Shown here in pieces: positions 10,317 through 54,037 of a DNA stretch of 64,000 nt (positions are counted from its first letter, which is position 1; each line of letters begins with the position of its first letter). The translations under genes were made by a program, and so were the position numbers. Origin of the DNA: Nakamurella lactea DSM 19367 (GTDB taxonomy: Bacteria > Actinomycetota > Actinomycetes > Mycobacteriales > Nakamurellaceae); assembly GCF_000426645.1 (NCBI RefSeq), contig NZ_AUFT01000021.1, positions 1 to 64,000 of the forward strand. Direction: 5' to 3'. Below the pieces are notes generated by a model. The model had not been told where the DNA came from, ran no database searches, and worked only from the letters and a program-made list of their open reading frames with translations.

Positions 10317-11514
10317 GATCCACCGGTCCCGGGACAACCCCGCCACGCGCCCCCGGGACAACCCCGCTACCCGGTCCCGGGACAACCCCGCTACGCGCCC
10401 CCGGGACAACCCCGCTACGCGCCCCCGGGACAACCCCGCTACGCGCCTCCGGGACAACCTCCCCAGCCGGCTGGCGCTCGGCGTGGGCCCCGCTCCGGGG
10501 CAGCGGGATCTGCCGGGTGGAGATGCGCTTGCGGAACACCCAGTAGGACCAGGCCTGGTAACCGATGACGAACGGCACCAGCGCCAGGGCGACCCAGCTC
10601 ATCACGGTCAGCGTGTACGGGCTGGAGGCGGCGTTGTGGATGTCCAGCGTTCCGGCCGGGTCACCGGTCGAGGGCATCACCAGCGGGAACAGCACGGTAA
10701 AGATCGAGCCGACCAGTGCCAGTACGCCGACGGCACTGGACACGAATGCCCAGCCGTCGCGGCCCACTCGGGTCAGCACGAGAGCCACCGCGACCGCGAC
10801 ACCACCGGCCAGCCCGACGACCAACGAGGTGGCGCCGAACTGCAGACCCGAGACACCACCGCGGATCTGCTGCATCCAGATCACCGCGACCAGGTACGCG
10901 ACGGTGGCGAAAACCCCGGCGCCGGTGGCGATCCGCCGAGCCCTGGCCCTGACCTCGTCGGTGGTCTTCAACGAGAGGAACACAGCGCCGTGGAAGACGA
11001 ACAGGCTCAGCGTCAGCAGACCGACCAGCAACGCGAACGGCGACAGGAAATCGCCGACGGTGCCGACGAATTCGTGATCGGCGCGCAGCGGCACCCCGTG
11101 CACGATGGAGCCGAACACCACCCCCCACAGCAGCGCCGGGACGAACGAGCAGACCGTGATGGCGATGTCCCAGTTCCGCCGCCACTGCGCCGTGCTGCCC
11201 TTGCCCCGGTACTCGAAGGCAAGTCCGCGGACGATCAGACAGACCAGGATCAGAAGCAGCGGCAGGTACCCGCCGGAGAACAACGTCGCGTACCACTGCG
11301 GGAAGGCGGCGAAGGTGGCGCCGGCTGCCGTGATCACCCACACCTCGTTGCCGTCCCAGACCGGGCCGATGGTATTCAGCAGCACCCGCCGGCCGCGCTC
11401 GTCGCGGCCGACCGGGCGGAGCAGGATGCCGACCCCGAAGTCGAATCCCTCCAGCACGAAGTACCCCGCCCAGAGCACCGCGATCAGCAGGAACCACAGG
11501 TCGTTGAGCGTCAT
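10303..11514 (-). CDS. cydB: Cytochrome bd oxidase subunit II CydB, repeat-extended C-terminus
   Basis: Predicted 403-residue membrane subunit of the quinol oxidase bd, with eight or nine hydrophobic segments ('LNDLWFLLIAVLWAGYFVLE', 'IGPVWDGNEVWVITAAGATF'). The normal protein ends around residue 340 ('YWVFRKRIS'). The last ~60 residues are unusual: they are read from a 24-base tandem repeat and give units of 'ARSGVVPG', ending 'PVDRETP'. This tail is expected to be a disordered cytoplasmic extension with no known role. It starts 13 bases after the cydA stop on the same strand and overlaps cydD. Confidence 0.93.
   Translation of the reverse strand: MTLNDLWFLLIAVLWAGYFVLEGFDFGVGILLRPVGRDERGRRVLLNTIGPVWDGNEVWVITAAGATFAAFPQWYATLFSGGYLPLLLILVCLIVRGLAFEYRGKGSTAQWRRNWDIAITVCSFVPALLWGVVFGSIVHGVPLRADHEFVGTVGDFLSPFALLVGLLTLSLFVFHGAVFLSLKTTDEVRARARRIATGAGVFATVAYLVAVIWMQQIRGGVSGLQFGATSLVVGLAGGVAVAVALVLTRVGRDGWAFVSSAVGVLALVGSIFTVLFPLVMPSTGDPAGTLDIHNAASSPYTLTVMSWVALALVPFVIGYQAWSYWVFRKRISTRQIPLPRSGAHAERQPAGEVVPEARSGVVPGARSGVVPGARSGVVPGPGSGVVPGARGGVVPGPVDRETP
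10328..10466. repeat. 24-bp tandem array inside the 3' end of cydB
   Basis: Six units with an exact 24-base period start at 10328, 10352, 10376, 10400, 10424 and 10448. Each contains CCCGGGACAACCCCGCTAC on the plus strand, i.e. GTAGCGGGGTTGTCCCGG on the minus strand; the last unit is degenerate. Because 24 is a multiple of three, the array stays in frame for cydB. The same core occurs at 23568-23702 and 27984-28019, so this is one locus of a dispersed repeat family that has expanded locally. Confidence 0.95.
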
Positions 11515-23235: not shown

Positions 23236-23571
23236 GTGCCTACCCGTGGCCATCAGCCCACCCTGATCACCGAGGCCGAACTGTCCTACGCCGACCAGTT
23301 CAAGATCCGCCGACGCCGGTACGTGATCATGATGGCGATGCGCGTGCCGTTCCTGATTGCCGCCGCCGCGACCTACCACACGCCCTGGCTGGCCATCACG
23401 CTGATCTGCGTGTCGATCCCGCTGCCGTGGATGGCGGTACTGGTCGCCAACGACCGTCCGGCCCGCAAACAGCGCTATGTGCGGCGCGGGACCCTGAACA
23501 CCGAACGCGCGCTGACCAGCGGCCATCCAGCGGAGATCGTCGAAGCCTCGCAACCCCACCCTGAGCCGTAG
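23236..23571 (+). CDS. DUF3099 membrane protein
   Basis: Predicted 111-residue protein with a short N-terminal soluble part ('LITEAELSYADQFKIRRRRYVIMM') and two close transmembrane helices (about 33-52 and 56-74), matching the actinobacterial DUF3099 family. Function is unknown. The start is GTG at 23236, 10 bases after the DUF1992 gene, so the two are probably co-transcribed. The TAG stop lies inside the first unit of a dispersed repeat. Confidence 0.85.
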   Translation: MPTRGHQPTLITEAELSYADQFKIRRRRYVIMMAMRVPFLIAAAATYHTPWLAITLICVSIPLPWMAVLVANDRPARKQRYVRRGTLNTERALTSGHPAEIVEASQPHPEP

Positions 23572-23702
23572 CGGGGTTGTCCCGCCAGCAAACCAGGCCC
23601 CCCGGGACAAGTGCGCTACGCCAGCCGTAGCGGGGTTGTCCCGCCAGCAAACCAGGCCCCCGGGGACAAGTGCGCTACGCCAGCCGTAGCGGGGTTGTCC
23701 CG
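23568..23702. repeat. Dispersed hairpin repeat, two 59-bp units plus a partial
   Basis: Copies of GTAGCGGGGTTGTCCCG start at 23568, 23627 and 23686. Each full 59-base unit also holds CGGGACAAGTGCGCTAC, whose complement differs from the first arm only in a GGG/CAC block, so each unit can fold as a long hairpin. The array sits between convergent genes (DUF3099 and the HhH-GPD gene) and its first unit supplies the stop codon of the former. The core is shared with 10328-10466 and 27984-28019. Confidence 0.95.
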
Positions 23703-27983: not shown

Positions 27984-28019
27984 GCGTAGCGGGGTTGTCC
28001 CGGGGCAACCCCGCTACGC
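27984..28019. repeat. Perfect hairpin copy of the dispersed GTAGCG repeat
   Basis: GCGTAGCGGGGTTG (27984-27997) and its exact complement (28006-28019) enclose an 8-base loop TCCCGGGG. It lies between the convergent sigB and Pat genes, 6 bases past the Pat stop, where it could act as a bidirectional terminator. The core is the same as in the cydB and 23.6-kb arrays. Confidence 0.9.
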
Positions 28020-40221: not shown

Positions 40222-40234
40222 ACTTCGTACAGAT

Positions 40235-40275
40235 ACTACTGCGGCGGGCGAAGTGGTTCCGCCCGCCGCAGTAGT
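40235..40275 (-). terminator. Hairpin terminator after divIVA
   Basis: A perfect 15-bp stem (ACTACTGCGGCGGGC and complement; 40235-40249 with 40261-40275) with an 11-base loop begins 19 bases past the divIVA stop. No T-run follows. It would end the dcw transcript and leave ileS with its own promoter. Confidence 0.85.
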
Positions 40276-40294
40276 GATCGAATCTCGGATCGGC

Positions 40295-48880: not shown

Positions 48881-50004
48881 CGGTGGGCTCCTCGTCCGGC
48901 GGCCGCACGCACCAGTTGCGCCAGTTCCCGGCCGACGTCGTGCTGACCCACGGCGGCCGCAGCGGCCTGCATCGCGGCGAACCGGGCGGCGCCGTCACCG
49001 TCCGGCAGCAGCAGTGGAATCACCTGTGAGACAATGGCTTCCGATGTCAGGTCAGCGTCGTCGATGATGATCGCCGAGCCGGCCTCGAGTTGTCCGGTGG
49101 CGTTCAGCCGCTGTTCGCCATTGCCGTGCGGCAGCGGAACGTACACCGCCGGCAGCCCGACGGTGCCGGTCTCGGCGACCGTCATCGCGCCGGACCGGCC
49201 GAGCATCAGGTCGACGGCGGAGAACGCCAGGTCCATCCGGTCCAGGTACGGCACCGTGACATAGGCCGGTGCGCCGGTCGGTAGGTCGTCCGGCAACTCG
49301 ACGGTGTTCTTGCGGCCGTGCGCGTGCAGCACGCCGATGCCGGCGTCGGCAAGTTCGCGGGCGGCGCCGCTGACCGCGGTGTTGATCCGCTGTGCCCCTT
49401 GGGATCCGCCCCAGACCAGCAGCGTCGGTGCGTCCGGATCCAGCCCGAAGAACTCCCTGGCCTGCGCGCGCAGCGCGGCCCGGTCCAGGCCGGCCAGCGC
49501 CGGCCGCACCGGGATTCCGATGACGGTGGCGTTCGTCAGCCCTGATCCTTCGACGGCCACCGCGACCGTGTCGGCGAACCGGGCGCCGATCTTGTTGGCC
49601 AGCCCGGCCCGCGCGTTGCTCTCGTGGATGACGATCGGGACCCGCTTGCGGGCCGCCAGGTAGGCCGGTAGCGCGACATAGCCGCCGAAGCCGACCACCA
49701 CGTCGACCTGCTCTGCGGCCATGATCGCGCGGGTCGCCTTGATCGCCGACCGCATCCGCGGCGCCAGGGTGATCAGATCCTTGGACGGCTTGCGCGGCAA
49801 CGGTACCGCCGGGATCAACTCGAGGCGGTAGCCGCGGGCCGGCACCAACGTGGTCTCCAGTCCGCGGTCGGTGCCAAGGGCAGTGATCCGGACGTCCGGG
49901 TCGTCGGCGCGCAACGCGTCGGCGACCGCCAGCGCCGGTTCGATGTGACCGGCGGTGCCGCCGCCGGCCAGCAGTACCGACAGCGGTCGGGAGGGTTGGC
50001 TCAT
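48877..50004 (-). CDS. murG: Lipid II synthase glycosyltransferase MurG
   Basis: Predicted 375-residue peripheral membrane enzyme transferring GlcNAc to lipid I. '[20 protein letters not shown]' and '[11 protein letters not shown]' are the two G-loops, with '[10 protein letters not shown]' and '[12 protein letters not shown]' binding UDP-GlcNAc. ATG at 50004 is set by the ATGA overlap with ftsW; upstream frame is shadow. Confidence 0.96.
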
Positions 50005-51359
50005 CCGCGGGTCCCGATGCCCAGGAACGCCGAGAACCGGCCCGGACCGTTGGCATGCAGCGCGGTGGCGGCCGGTGGCTCGCGGCGGGCGAAGTTGGCC
50101 AGCAGACCGAACACCGTCATGCTGACGATCAGCGACGAGCCGCCGGAGGAGATCAGCGGCAGGGTCAGCCCGGTGGTGGGCAGCGCACCGACCACGTAAC
50201 CGATGTTGATCGCCGCCTGGCCGACCAGCCAGACCGTGGCCGCCCCGGCGGCGATCTTGATGAACGGGTCGACGTTGCGGCGGGCGATCCGCAGACCGGT
50301 GTAGGCCAACAGGGCGAACAGCAGGATCACCACGGCGGCGCCGATCAGCCCGAGTTCCTCGCCGATGATGGCGAAGATGAAATCGGAATCCGCGTAGGGC
50401 AGCCAGCTCCACTTGGCCCGCGACTGGCCGAGCCCGACGCCGAACAACCCGCCGCGACCCATCCCGTACAGGCCCTGGCGCAGCTGGTAAGTGGCCTCCG
50501 GAAACTTCTCCGGATCGAACAGCGCCAGCACCCGCTTGAGCCGGTAGGCCGCCGAGGTGGCCATGTAGGCCATCGCGGCCAACCCGAACGCCGAGGTGGT
50601 CAGGAACAGCCACAGCGGCGCGCCGGCGAACCACATCACCGCGGCCAGCACGATGGCCAGCGTCACCAGCGTTCCCAGATCGGGCTGCAGATAGATGAGC
50701 GCCGCCATCAGCAAAGCGACCGGCACGATCGGAATCAGCAGTTGCCGCAGCGAACCGAGTGACGAACGACGCGCGGCCAGTACGTGCGCGGCCCACAGCA
50801 GCAACGCCAGTTTGGCGAACTCAGCCGGCTGGATGGTGAAGGTGTTCCCGATCCCGATCCAGCTCCGGGCGCCGTTGATGTTGCTGCCGATCCCCGGCAC
50901 CAGCACCGCGACCAGCAGCCCGAGACTGATCACCATGAAGGTGGTGGTCCAGGCCCTGATCACCTTGATCGGCAACCGGGCGGCGAACAGGAAACCGATG
51001 AAACCGATGACGGCGAAGATCGCCTGCCGCTGGAAGGCGGCGAACGAGTTGCGGGCGTCGCCGCGGTAGGAGGTGACCGACGACGAGGAGAGCACCATGA
51101 CCAGCCCGATGCCCAGCAGCAGCAGGAAGATCGCGACGATCAGGTGGAACGACGTCATCGGCCGGTCGAGCCAGTTCTGCAGCCGGCCGATCGGCCCGCT
51201 GCCGCCGTTGCCGGCCGACCTGGGGGCCTTCGATGCGCGGCTCTTCTTCTTCCGGGCATTCGTACCCTGGGTCGACTGCCGGTTGTTCGGAGTCCGGCTG
51301 TTCGGGTTCCTACTGGTCGGGCCTGCCGAGGCGCCTGGTCTGGGATCGGTGGTGGTCAC
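50001..51359 (-). CDS. ftsW: SEDS peptidoglycan glycosyltransferase FtsW
   Basis: Predicted 452-residue polytopic membrane protein, the septal glycan polymerase partner of FtsI. About 60 Asn/Arg/Lys-rich cytoplasmic residues precede ten hydrophobic segments. SEDS marks include '[27 protein letters not shown]', 'QPDLGT' and '[17 protein letters not shown]'. GTG start overlaps the murD stop by GTGA. Confidence 0.96.
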
Positions 51360-52843
51360 GGGCGGTCCAGGGCGGCAACCGCTCGAGCGAACGCGTCACC
51401 CCGGGCCGCATACGAGCTGAACATGTCCAGCGAGGCGGCCGCCGGTGCCAGTAGCACCACCGTTCCGGGAGCAGCCAGGGTGGCGGCCGCGCGCACTGCC
51501 TCGTCCATGGCTCCATCGTCGGTTCTGCCGACCGAGATCCGCGGGACATCGGGCGCGTGTCGGCCAAGTGCGTCCTCGATCACCTGTGCGTCGACACCGA
51601 GCAGCACCACGCCGGCCAGCCGGTCCGCGATCCGGGCGACCAATTCGTCGACCGTCGCACCCTTGAGCTGTCCGCCGGCGATCCACACCACCCGTTGGTA
51701 GGCGAGCAGCGAGGCGGCGGCGGCGTGCGGGTTGGTCGCCTTGGTGTCGTTGACGTAGCGGACGCCGCCGATCTCGGCGACCGGCTGGTTGCGGTGCGCA
51801 CCCGGCGTGAACGCCCTGACCCCCTGTCGGATCGCGGGCGGCGGCACGTCGACGGCCAACGCCAGTGCCGCCGCGGCCATCGCGTTGGTGACGTTGTGCC
51901 GGCCGGGCAGCCGCAGGTCGGCGGCGGCGAACAGCCTGCCGTGGCCGAAGGCCTGGTCGACGACAGTCTCGGCGCCACCGGCCGCCGTGACCCCGATCTG
52001 GCCGTCGGCCGGCACCCCGTCGATCACCTCGACCTTGATCCCGGCGGGCGCAGCGCGCAGCAGGGACTCCGCGGTCGGATCGGGGTGATTTTCGCCGCGA
52101 AGTCGCGGCCGGAATCGCCCCGATCCATGGTCGACCGGGCGGTCACGAACGGCGACCGCGATGTCGCCGGTCAGCGCGAGCGCCTTGGCCTGCGCGTAGG
52201 CGGCCATCGAGCCGTGCCAGTCCAGGTGGTCCTCGGCCAGGTTGAGCAGCAGCCCGGCCCGCGGCCGCAGGCTCGGGGCGTAGTGCAGCTGGAAGCTGGA
52301 CAGCTCGGCGGCGATCAGGTCCTGTCTCGGCTGTTGCTGCCACGGCTCGAGGGGTCCGCCGGCCAGCACCGCTTCGATGACCGGCCAGCCCACATTGCCG
52401 CAGGCGGTCACCTGCCGGCCGGCCGCCTGCAGCATCGCCTCGAGCAGGCCGATGGTGGTGGTCTTGCCGTTGGTGCCGGTCACCACCAGCCAGGGCCGCG
52501 GCGATCCGGACGCCTGGTCGATGCGCCAGGCCAGCTCGGTCTCGCCGATCACCTCGATGTCGGCGGCCAGCGCCGAGGCCAGCAAGGGGTGGGACGGTGG
52601 GATGCCGGCGGAGGTGACGACCAGCGAGCAGCCCTGCGGCACGCTCATCAGGTCGCCGGCGAAGGTGACGTCACCGGCGATCTCGGCCAGCCCGGCCGGG
52701 GCGGGCCGGTTCGAGGTGACCAGCACCGAGGCGCCGATCCGTGCCAGGTATCTGACCACCGGCAGACCCGTCACCCCGGCGCCGGCGGCGACCACCAGGT
52801 CGCCGGCTCCCGGGAGGCCCCGACCCCCGTCAGCGATGATCAT
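51356..52843 (-). CDS. murD: UDP-MurNAc-L-Ala:D-Glu ligase MurD with in-frame insertion
   Basis: Predicted 495-residue ligase adding D-glutamate. 'VVAAGAGVTGLPVVRYL' begins the UDP domain, 'VVTGTNGKTTTIGLL' is the ATP loop, and 'LNLAEDHLDWHG' and 'YVNDTKATNPHAA' are conserved. Around residues 235-258 an extra stretch of about 19 residues ('DHGSGRFRPRLRGENHPDP') interrupts the segment where other MurD proteins run directly from 'AV...DDRV' into 'ADLL..APA'. The DNA there is a 50-base palindrome. The reading frame and all active-site motifs are intact, so the enzyme is probably functional. Confidence 0.95.
   Translation of the reverse strand: MIIADGGRGLPGAGDLVVAAGAGVTGLPVVRYLARIGASVLVTSNRPAPAGLAEIAGDVTFAGDLMSVPQGCSLVVTSAGIPPSHPLLASALAADIEVIGETELAWRIDQASGSPRPWLVVTGTNGKTTTIGLLEAMLQAAGRQVTACGNVGWPVIEAVLAGGPLEPWQQQPRQDLIAAELSSFQLHYAPSLRPRAGLLLNLAEDHLDWHGSMAAYAQAKALALTGDIAVAVRDRPVDHGSGRFRPRLRGENHPDPTAESLLRAAPAGIKVEVIDGVPADGQIGVTAAGGAETVVDQAFGHGRLFAAADLRLPGRHNVTNAMAAAALALAVDVPPPAIRQGVRAFTPGAHRNQPVAEIGGVRYVNDTKATNPHAAAASLLAYQRVVWIAGGQLKGATVDELVARIADRLAGVVLLGVDAQVIEDALGRHAPDVPRISVGRTDDGAMDEAVRAAATLAAPGTVVLLAPAAASLDMFSSYAARGDAFARAVAALDRP
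52077..52126. repeat. 50-bp imperfect palindrome inserted in murD
   Basis: Arms of 24 bases, GGATCGGGGTGATTTTCGCC... (52077-52100) and ...GGCCGGAATCGCCCCGATCC (52103-52126), pair at 20 of 24 positions around a 2-base loop. The element sits in frame within the MurD middle domain and accounts for most of the extra residues there. This resembles palindromic elements known to insert into Rickettsia genes, but no sequence link to them is claimed. Confidence 0.85.
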
Positions 52844-52939: not shown

Positions 52940-54037
52940 TCAGCCTCCGGTCAGGGAGAGCCAGTCCGCGTAGAACAGGCCGAGTCCGATTGCCGCCGAT
53001 ACCGCGGCCAGCAGCAGGAACCGCACGAAGACCGTGGTTTCCGCCCACCCGGACAACTCGAAGTGATGATGGAACGGCGCCATCTTGAACACTCTGACCC
53101 TGCGGGTCTTGAACACCGCCACCTGGATCACCACCGAGGCCATCTCGATCACGAACAGCCCGGCGATGACGACCAACAGCAGCTCGGTCCTGGTCAGGAT
53201 CGACAGACCGGCGATCAACGCGCCGAGCGGCAGTGAACCGGTGTCCCCCATGAAGATCCGGGCCGGGTGGGCGTTCCACCACAGGAATCCAACGCAGCCG
53301 CCGACCGCGGCGGCGGCCACTACCGCCAGGTCCAGTGGATCCCGCACGTCGTAGCAGCCGGCGTACGCGGCGCTGTTCGTCGGAAGCGCCCAGCAGGCGT
53401 TGCGGAACTGGAAGAAGCAGATCGCCACATAGCCGCCGAGCACCATCACCGATGACCCGGCGGCCAGCCCGTCCAACCCGTCGGTGAGATTCACCGCATT
53501 CGACCAGGCGGCGATGAGCAGGACGGCGATGATGACGAACCCGACGGCGCCGAAGGTGATGAACTTCAGGTCGTGGGTGTACGACAGCCGCACCGAGCCG
53601 GGCGTCAACCCGTTGCTGTTCTTGAACAACAGCGCGCCGATGGCGAAGGTGACGCCGACGAAGGTCTGCCCGATCAGTTTGGCCCGCGGGTTCAGACCGA
53701 GGTTGCGCTTCATCCGGATCTTGATGAAGTCGTCGAGGAAGCCGACGACGCCGATCCCGGTGGTCAGGTACAGCAGCAGCCAGGCGGAGGCGGTCGGGCC
53801 ACCGCCGCGCTCGGTCATCAGCCGGACCAGCATCGACACCAGGTAGCCGACCCACATCGCGATCAGGATCGCCGCGCCGCCCATCGTCGGGGTGCCGCGT
53901 TTGGCCAGGTGGGACTGCGGCCCGTCCTCCCGGATCTCCTGGCCGAAGCCCGGTCGGGAGAACACCTTGATCAGGTACGGGGTGAGCATCACGGACACGA
54001 TCAGCCCGACCACCGCGGCGATCAGGATGCTCTTCAT
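52940..54037 (-). CDS. mraY: Phospho-MurNAc-pentapeptide transferase MraY
   Basis: Predicted 365-residue enzyme with ten hydrophobic segments that makes lipid I on undecaprenyl phosphate. 'GTPTMGG', 'GFLDDFIKI', 'NAVNLTDGLDGLA', 'FMGDTGSLPLG' and 'MAPFHHHFELSGWAE' are the family's catalytic and substrate motifs. ATG at 54037. Gaps of 96 bases to murD and 109 to murF, larger than other joints in the cluster. Confidence 0.97.
   Translation of the reverse strand: MKSILIAAVVGLIVSVMLTPYLIKVFSRPGFGQEIREDGPQSHLAKRGTPTMGGAAILIAMWVGYLVSMLVRLMTERGGGPTASAWLLLYLTTGIGVVGFLDDFIKIRMKRNLGLNPRAKLIGQTFVGVTFAIGALLFKNSNGLTPGSVRLSYTHDLKFITFGAVGFVIIAVLLIAAWSNAVNLTDGLDGLAAGSSVMVLGGYVAICFFQFRNACWALPTNSAAYAGCYDVRDPLDLAVVAAAAVGGCVGFLWWNAHPARIFMGDTGSLPLGALIAGLSILTRTELLLVVIAGLFVIEMASVVIQVAVFKTRRVRVFKMAPFHHHFELSGWAETTVFVRFLLLAAVSAAIGLGLFYADWLSLTGG

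Follow-up and report, generated by a model that had tools for sequence, protein, structure and literature searches.

Vsr-fold nucleases serve selfish spread in the Vsr-like homing endonucleases of introns and inteins. In REP/RAYT systems, as described in excerpts of PMC3686654, the palindromes are short and dispersed, enclose a single gene between two copies of one palindrome and also occur alone between genes, and related strains can carry different REP classes at syntenic or orthologous RAYT genes. CGTC-type REPs, including some Rickettsia conorii palindromic elements, apparently lack a dedicated transposase (PMC3733652, in excerpt). Rickettsia palindromic elements (RPEs) provide a described case of an in-frame palindrome in a conserved protein gene, with the protein apparently kept (PMC2229807, in excerpt).

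Here we analysed a 64,000-nucleotide stretch (the window) of the Nakamurella lactea DSM 19367 genome, which comprises 5,820,860 bases in 27 contigs. Within the window, a hairpin lies in frame inside murD. The features concerned are listed below; the names of the two neighbouring genes are presumed from gene order and sequence.

51356..52843, minus strand (running 52843..51356): murD, encoding UDP-N-acetylmuramoylalanine--D-glutamate ligase, 495 residues, open frame intact
52940..54037, minus strand: presumed mraY, murD neighbour, open frame
50001..51359, minus strand: presumed ftsW, murD neighbour, open frame
52077..52126, no strand: hairpin, a 50-nt imperfect palindrome and copy of a dispersed family, within murD, recovered by a model from which the murD copy was left out
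52082..52141, minus strand: net 60-nt in-frame gain in murD, encoding RPVDHGSGRFRPRLRGENHP, one of the possible placements

A genome search returned one full-length MurD only, with one further partial match at E 2.2e-4. The first-pass annotation of this DNA had placed a 50-base imperfect palindrome inside murD, and both its position and its frame proved right. The 24-base arms with 20 paired bases and a 2-base loop that it read are the same structure as the one given here (23-bp arms, 19 pairs, 4-nt loop; 4 of 23 pairs broken), drawn with one more pair. The loop reads AAGT, against TAGT in most other copies of the family. Folded as single-stranded DNA, positions 52060-52145 reached -28.3 kcal/mol (z -3.54), and none of 200 shuffles was as good.

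Nakamurella relatives, in place of Mycobacterium, served as the yardstick for the protein. The 11 MurDs of the same type that the genus yielded all run ungapped across the insertion site (type AVAVVDDP); compared with each of them, the N. lactea protein has 20 residues (60 nt) more here, net. In five of the 17 genus genomes (G002, G003, G010, G012 and G014; L043-L047), a distant MurD-like protein (33-37% identity), likewise without the segment, is all that was seen in place of the usual MurD; these are possibly MurD2-type replacements. The earlier claim that about 19 residues are absent elsewhere therefore held for the absence, in 16 of 16 other genus genomes examined (11 with same-type MurD, 5 with the distant protein), and was adjusted in size.

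The gain can be placed either as one 60-nt block (for example, 52141..52082) or as a 48-nt hairpin between the codons GTC GAC and GAT CCG, plus 12 nt (CGTGACCGCCCG) upstream. Both codon pairs are present in relatives at the insertion site and directly flank the 48-nt hairpin insert. No clear target-site duplication was readable in the sequence at the hairpin, and flanking GACCGC direct repeats were rejected as one because their spacing of 68 nt (counted by eye) is not a multiple of three. We predicted a structure from the window MurD and 7 related proteins (mean pLDDT 72.8); these 7 came from a search of named genomes that gave 16 relatives, the best 46% identical and none from Nakamurella, and were used for the structure model only. 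Residues 234-257 fell below pLDDT 50, between a strand (228-233) and a helix (256-264), suggesting that the segment probably sits in a loop that tolerates added residues.

The hairpin belongs to a family of nine or ten copies in this genome, of which the murD copy is the only intragenic one. Recurrence of the palindrome elsewhere in the genome was confirmed by a whole-genome DNA search, in which four places besides murD, each of them on contig C6, matched at E<=3.2e-4: C6:402101, C6:170479 and C6:87720 (E 1.2e-6 to 2.2e-6) and C6:169392-169435 (E 1.7e-4 to 3.2e-4). A first covariance model, built from six copies (murD, these four and C11:107414), found nine places outside murD, the two weakest at E 0.0019 and 0.28. 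The copies that it added are:

C4:459024: added hairpin copy, E 6.4e-6
C6:260396: added hairpin copy, E 1.7e-4
C6:137309: added hairpin copy, E 0.0019
C10:83684: added hairpin copy, doubtful, E 0.28 (0.28-0.40)

In a second covariance model C6:260396 was swapped in for the murD copy; under this murD-free model, murD scored 55.9 bits, with E=8e-8 when the entire genome was searched and E 6.4e-9 when 464 kb were. All nine places outside murD are intergenic in simple gene calls. Some solo copies lie between convergent genes, and one copy adjoins a tRNA-Lys-like sequence (by eye). Copies read by eye have GTAGTC at the hairpin centre and no end tag. Contig C6 makes up 7.8% of the genome yet holds six of the nine places, two of them bracketing a gene (binomial P 1.6e-5, with the contig chosen post hoc), a clustering that possibly reflects local spread.

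In the 16 other Nakamurella genomes, where scoring covered up to 150 first-look places in each and weak copies may escape, the family had no match at E<=1e-4; the covariance model gave one weak match, in G004 (E 0.0043). Across the order, the first model matched 5 of 397 genomes, its own included; by eye, the matches in G309 and G255 look like coding sequence. From the copy number, the absence in relatives and the in-frame insertion, we infer that the hairpin is mobile. The original suggestion of a mobile palindromic repeat that tolerates coding DNA is thus supported, with mobility read from sequence and tolerance of coding DNA represented by a single intragenic case, that of murD.

A second repeat, GTAGCGGGGTTGTCCC, was seen in many copies, which form both tandem arrays with a spacing of about 24, 57 or 59 nt and inverted pairs. 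It starts with GTAG, as classical REPs do, and lies at:

Window 10331-10442, 23568-23701 and 27986-28017: second repeat
C6:138457-138568, 140551, 344350, 378683 and 395594-395757: second repeat

The window also holds, at about 40227-40283, a strong hairpin with arms ACTACTGCGGCGGGCGAA and TCCGCCCGCCGCAGTAGT (1 mismatch in 18) and the loop GTGGT. In another genome, a near-perfect hairpin (L142, G045:C5:86846-86895) shares the GTAGTC centre, the remaining sequence being different. Two viral contigs of IMG/VR (L162, L163) contain the exact 20-mer CGGCCGCGTAGTCGCGGCCG.

On C6, the hairpin family has a gene-bearing form:

C6:169387-170530: element consisting of a hairpin, a 319-residue gene and a hairpin
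C6:169387-169436 and C6:170481-170530: the bracketing hairpins, with 44 identical nt shared
C6:169445-170404, minus strand: the 319-residue gene between the hairpins

The element adjoins a gene that we take, from its sequence, to be leuS. G054, a genome of another family and a first-model match among the 397 order genomes, contains a separate hairpin family with five places. A homolog of the C6 gene (34% identity, full length, E 7e-41) is bracketed by two of these, 1088 bp apart, the others being solo copies, and in both elements read (C6 and G054) one gene lies between two hairpins.

The G054 protein is above the Pfam cut-offs for AbiEi_4 (33.4 bits) and DUF559 (27.2 bits). The C6 protein scores 24.3 for AbiEi_4, just under the cut-off of 25, and gave no DUF559 match at E<=0.001; its putative nuclease domain is assigned by homology. 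At E<=0.01, Pfam matched AbiEi_4 in 18 of 34 homologs and DUF559 in 11 of 34. These two head the list of seven Pfam families matched by the 34 homologs at that threshold, and Y1 transposase is not among the seven. The commonest PADLOC AbiEi model matched the N-terminal domain in 32 of the 34. A profile of the same homologs had remote PDB matches to 3hrl in its C-terminal part (endonuclease-like, E 3.7e-4) and to 6y8q in its N-terminal part (an abortive phage infection protein, presumably AbiEi, E 0.0047). By homology, the C6 gene family is predicted to combine two domains, a winged helix of AbiEi type and a DUF559/Vsr-like nuclease.

Among 69 homologs (a locus with an internal stop, L214, was excluded from the count), G201, S204, E207, D239, D252-G253, H257, D265, R268 and D269 in the numbering of the N. 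lactea protein are 88-100% kept: S204 and E207 at 100%, D239, D252 and H257 at 96%, and D265 and D269 at 94%. These residues fit a PD-(D/E)XK/Vsr-type nuclease, an assignment that we make from Pfam and from known motifs. Three protein queries (one at E<=1e-5, two at E<=1e-8) found no homolog among 72,556 plasmid records, which fits a chromosomal gene; RAYTs are chromosomal. Two weak homolog matches occurred in phage-labelled gut contigs. With no homolog in the plasmid records and no hairpin match in plasmids or phages at E<=0.1, a plasmid or phage origin was rejected.

Homologs at E<=1e-15 were present in 87 of the 397 order genomes, with at least 117 matches (five candidates per genome scored). 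For 70 of these 117 loci, we compared the upstream 300 nt with the downstream stretch from -15 to +300 nt. A flanking-repeat score of at least 40 was reached at 46 of the 70 loci, from 33 genomes, against 6 of 237 control genes drawn from 20-kb regions in 20 of these genomes (Fisher P 3e-30, which overstates independence because the loci are related by descent; starts were the first start codon of the open frame in controls and came from the alignment in homologs, so the sets were not treated quite alike). At a score of at least 60, the counts were 36 of 70 and 2 of 237 matched control genes. Among 248 Nakamurella genes, a control set that includes the C6 element, one scored at least 40, and that one is the C6 element.

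Strict hairpins on both sides marked 18 of the 70 homolog loci, against 1 of 241 and 0 of 237 control genes. On a single side, a hairpin score of at least 14 was reached upstream at 29 of 70 loci (controls, 8 of 237) and downstream at 22 of 70 (controls, 16 of 237). Only 16 of the 46 pairs had a palindromicity of at least 0.4 on both sides, because many repeats are bulged or the aligned stretch overruns the hairpin. At the cut-off, 24 of the 70 loci were without a flanking repeat. Across the 46 loci, the upstream repeat ends a median of 86 nt before the start (30-155 nt in 44 of 46), and the downstream repeat begins a median of 2 nt before the stop-codon end (-15 to +40 nt from it in 43 of 46, -15 being the search floor). 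Repeat sequence varies between genes: of the five G054 paralogs, four are flanked by repeats, no two of them with the same one, and GTAGTC occurs in the repeats of 5 of the 46 loci.

In an Amycolatopsis-like genus (g33), the hairpin of the G305 element matched 36 of 60 genomes at E<=0.001, and 21 of the 60 had at least 20 matches (both strands of one palindrome counted; 15 places per genome scored). A loose first look gave more than 100 candidate places, unconfirmed, in 19 of the 60. Six genomes of this genus with a gene match had from at least 12 to at least 30 hairpin matches. Where the gene search at E<=1e-15 (five candidates per genome scored) gave nothing, five genomes had at least 24, 1, 0, 7 and 0; the one with at least 24 is G120, its gene absence being uncertain with five candidates scored. 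G281 and G329, also with no gene match, are outside the 60. Eleven hairpin copies read in the genus lie at open-frame edges, none clearly intragenic.

Orthologous elements occupy one locus in G066 and G305 (L190, L212), adjoining a gene that we take to be UDP-glucose-dehydrogenase-like. Between the two, the left flank and gene block have 79% DNA identity, the right flank 88% and the proteins 78%. In this one orthologous pair, the two hairpins of an element agree at 96-100%, and hairpins from the two species agree at 72-76%.

On balance, we favour the reading that the palindrome in murD represents, as a solo copy, a family of REP-like mobile hairpins and that this family is served by a nuclease of DUF559 type; we hold it with somewhat better than even confidence. 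A nuclease-like domain, a DNA-binding-type N-terminus, cognate hairpins at the ends, solo hairpins and joint turnover of the pair together suggest that the protein acts on the hairpins and spreads them. The C6 protein would recognize its own hairpin, probably in the shape of a cruciform or of a single strand exposed by replication, and would cut at or beside it, leading to hairpins being copied or moved to new sites. The copy in murD went in with no stops in its frame, at a net length divisible by three and in an apparent loop, and the gene tolerated it. Such a system would be a RAYT/REP counterpart built with a different nuclease. Counting against this reading are the 24 loci without a repeat, the hairpin-rich G120 without a gene match, the lack of a readable target-site duplication, the sub-threshold Pfam scores of the C6 protein, the recognition of AbiEi_4 and DUF559 in only part of the homologs and the single intragenic copy. 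The family, the insertion, the bracketing in many genomes and the conserved nuclease-type residues are observed; the movement, and the nuclease's part in it, we infer from comparison of sequences.

A different account, which we consider unlikely, makes the hairpins binding or regulatory sites (operators, attenuators) of the AbiEi-like protein, or terminators of a stand-alone defence or toxin-antitoxin-like gene, with the dispersed copies co-opted or due to chance. AbiEi antitoxins are said to bind inverted repeats at their own promoter, and the median distance from upstream repeat to start agrees with such a role, as do the solo copies between convergent genes. However, this account leaves unexplained why a nearly identical copy recurs at the stop codon, why murD has an in-frame insertion, and why there are nine or ten copies here and many in other genomes. 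In both elements read, moreover, a single gene lies between the hairpins. The terminator reading was rejected, as it fails to account for copies at both gene ends and in murD.

It is just as improbable, in our judgement, that the hairpins are ordinary REPs or MITEs moved by a RAYT or another transposase elsewhere, and that the DUF559 gene uses or tolerates them as boundaries. RAYT-associated REPs are well described (excerpts of PMC3686654 and PMC3733652), but the bracketing is specific to the homologs when set against other genes of the same genomes (46 of 70 versus 6 of 237), and the repeats differ between genes. That the murD segment is an ordinary indel, its palindromic look due to chance or codon usage, is hardly credible: the imperfect pairing and the 47 palindromes with 18-nt arms and at most 3 mismatches in 464 kb of this genome speak for it, but it is already contradicted by the DNA match to dispersed copies (E=1.2e-6) and by detection with the murD-free model, on which a chance palindrome was rejected.

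The preferred reading, a hairpin family served by its own nuclease, would explain the dispersed copies and suggest what is done by proteins whose only matches are to AbiEi and DUF559 models. We see the balance as even on the broader proposal that proteins in which an AbiEi-type winged helix is coupled with a DUF559/Vsr-like nuclease act as dedicated hairpin mobilizers throughout the order, perhaps beyond, of PD-(D/E)XK type and not HUH, with in-frame placement in essential genes. If this were true, filing such proteins as AbiEi antitoxins would be misleading. The bracketed nuclease-like family gives palindromic-element movement a testable candidate of a different enzymatic type. The murD case shows that hairpins can add residues to an essential protein. 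In the literature covered, with most subscription journals and bioRxiv outside its scope, we found no report of palindromes bracketing DUF559/AbiEi genes, and a prior description is possible. What is new here is that copies of this hairpin stand on both sides of a nuclease-like gene, and that such an arrangement recurs across the order.

By arrangement, this hairpin system resembles REP/RAYT: its palindromes are short and dispersed, two copies of one palindrome enclose a single gene, solo copies lie between genes and, at one locus pair (L190, L212), orthologous genes carry different hairpins. It is not a member, because the bracketed gene is AbiEi-type plus DUF559/Vsr-like and not an HUH/Y1 transposase, and because the GT(A/G)G end tag (GTAG) is absent from the copies read by eye, with GTAGTC central instead. 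The hairpins are also longer, at about 44-50 nt.

RPEs share the in-frame position in a conserved protein gene, but belong to another lineage, have many intragenic copies against one here and, by their description in excerpts of PMC2229807, are set apart at 105-146 bp against 50 nt. A candidate enzyme is at hand here, whereas those excerpts give no mobilizer for RPEs. AbiE type IV toxin-antitoxin and abortive infection systems (AbiEi) are alike in the N-terminal domain, which matches AbiEi models in 32 of 34 homologs; the difference is that here this domain is joined to a nuclease-like domain and the gene is hairpin-bracketed, with one gene between the hairpins (C6, G054). Vsr-like homing endonucleases have in common the use of a Vsr-fold nuclease, but the mobile unit here would be the hairpin, with no intron or intein.
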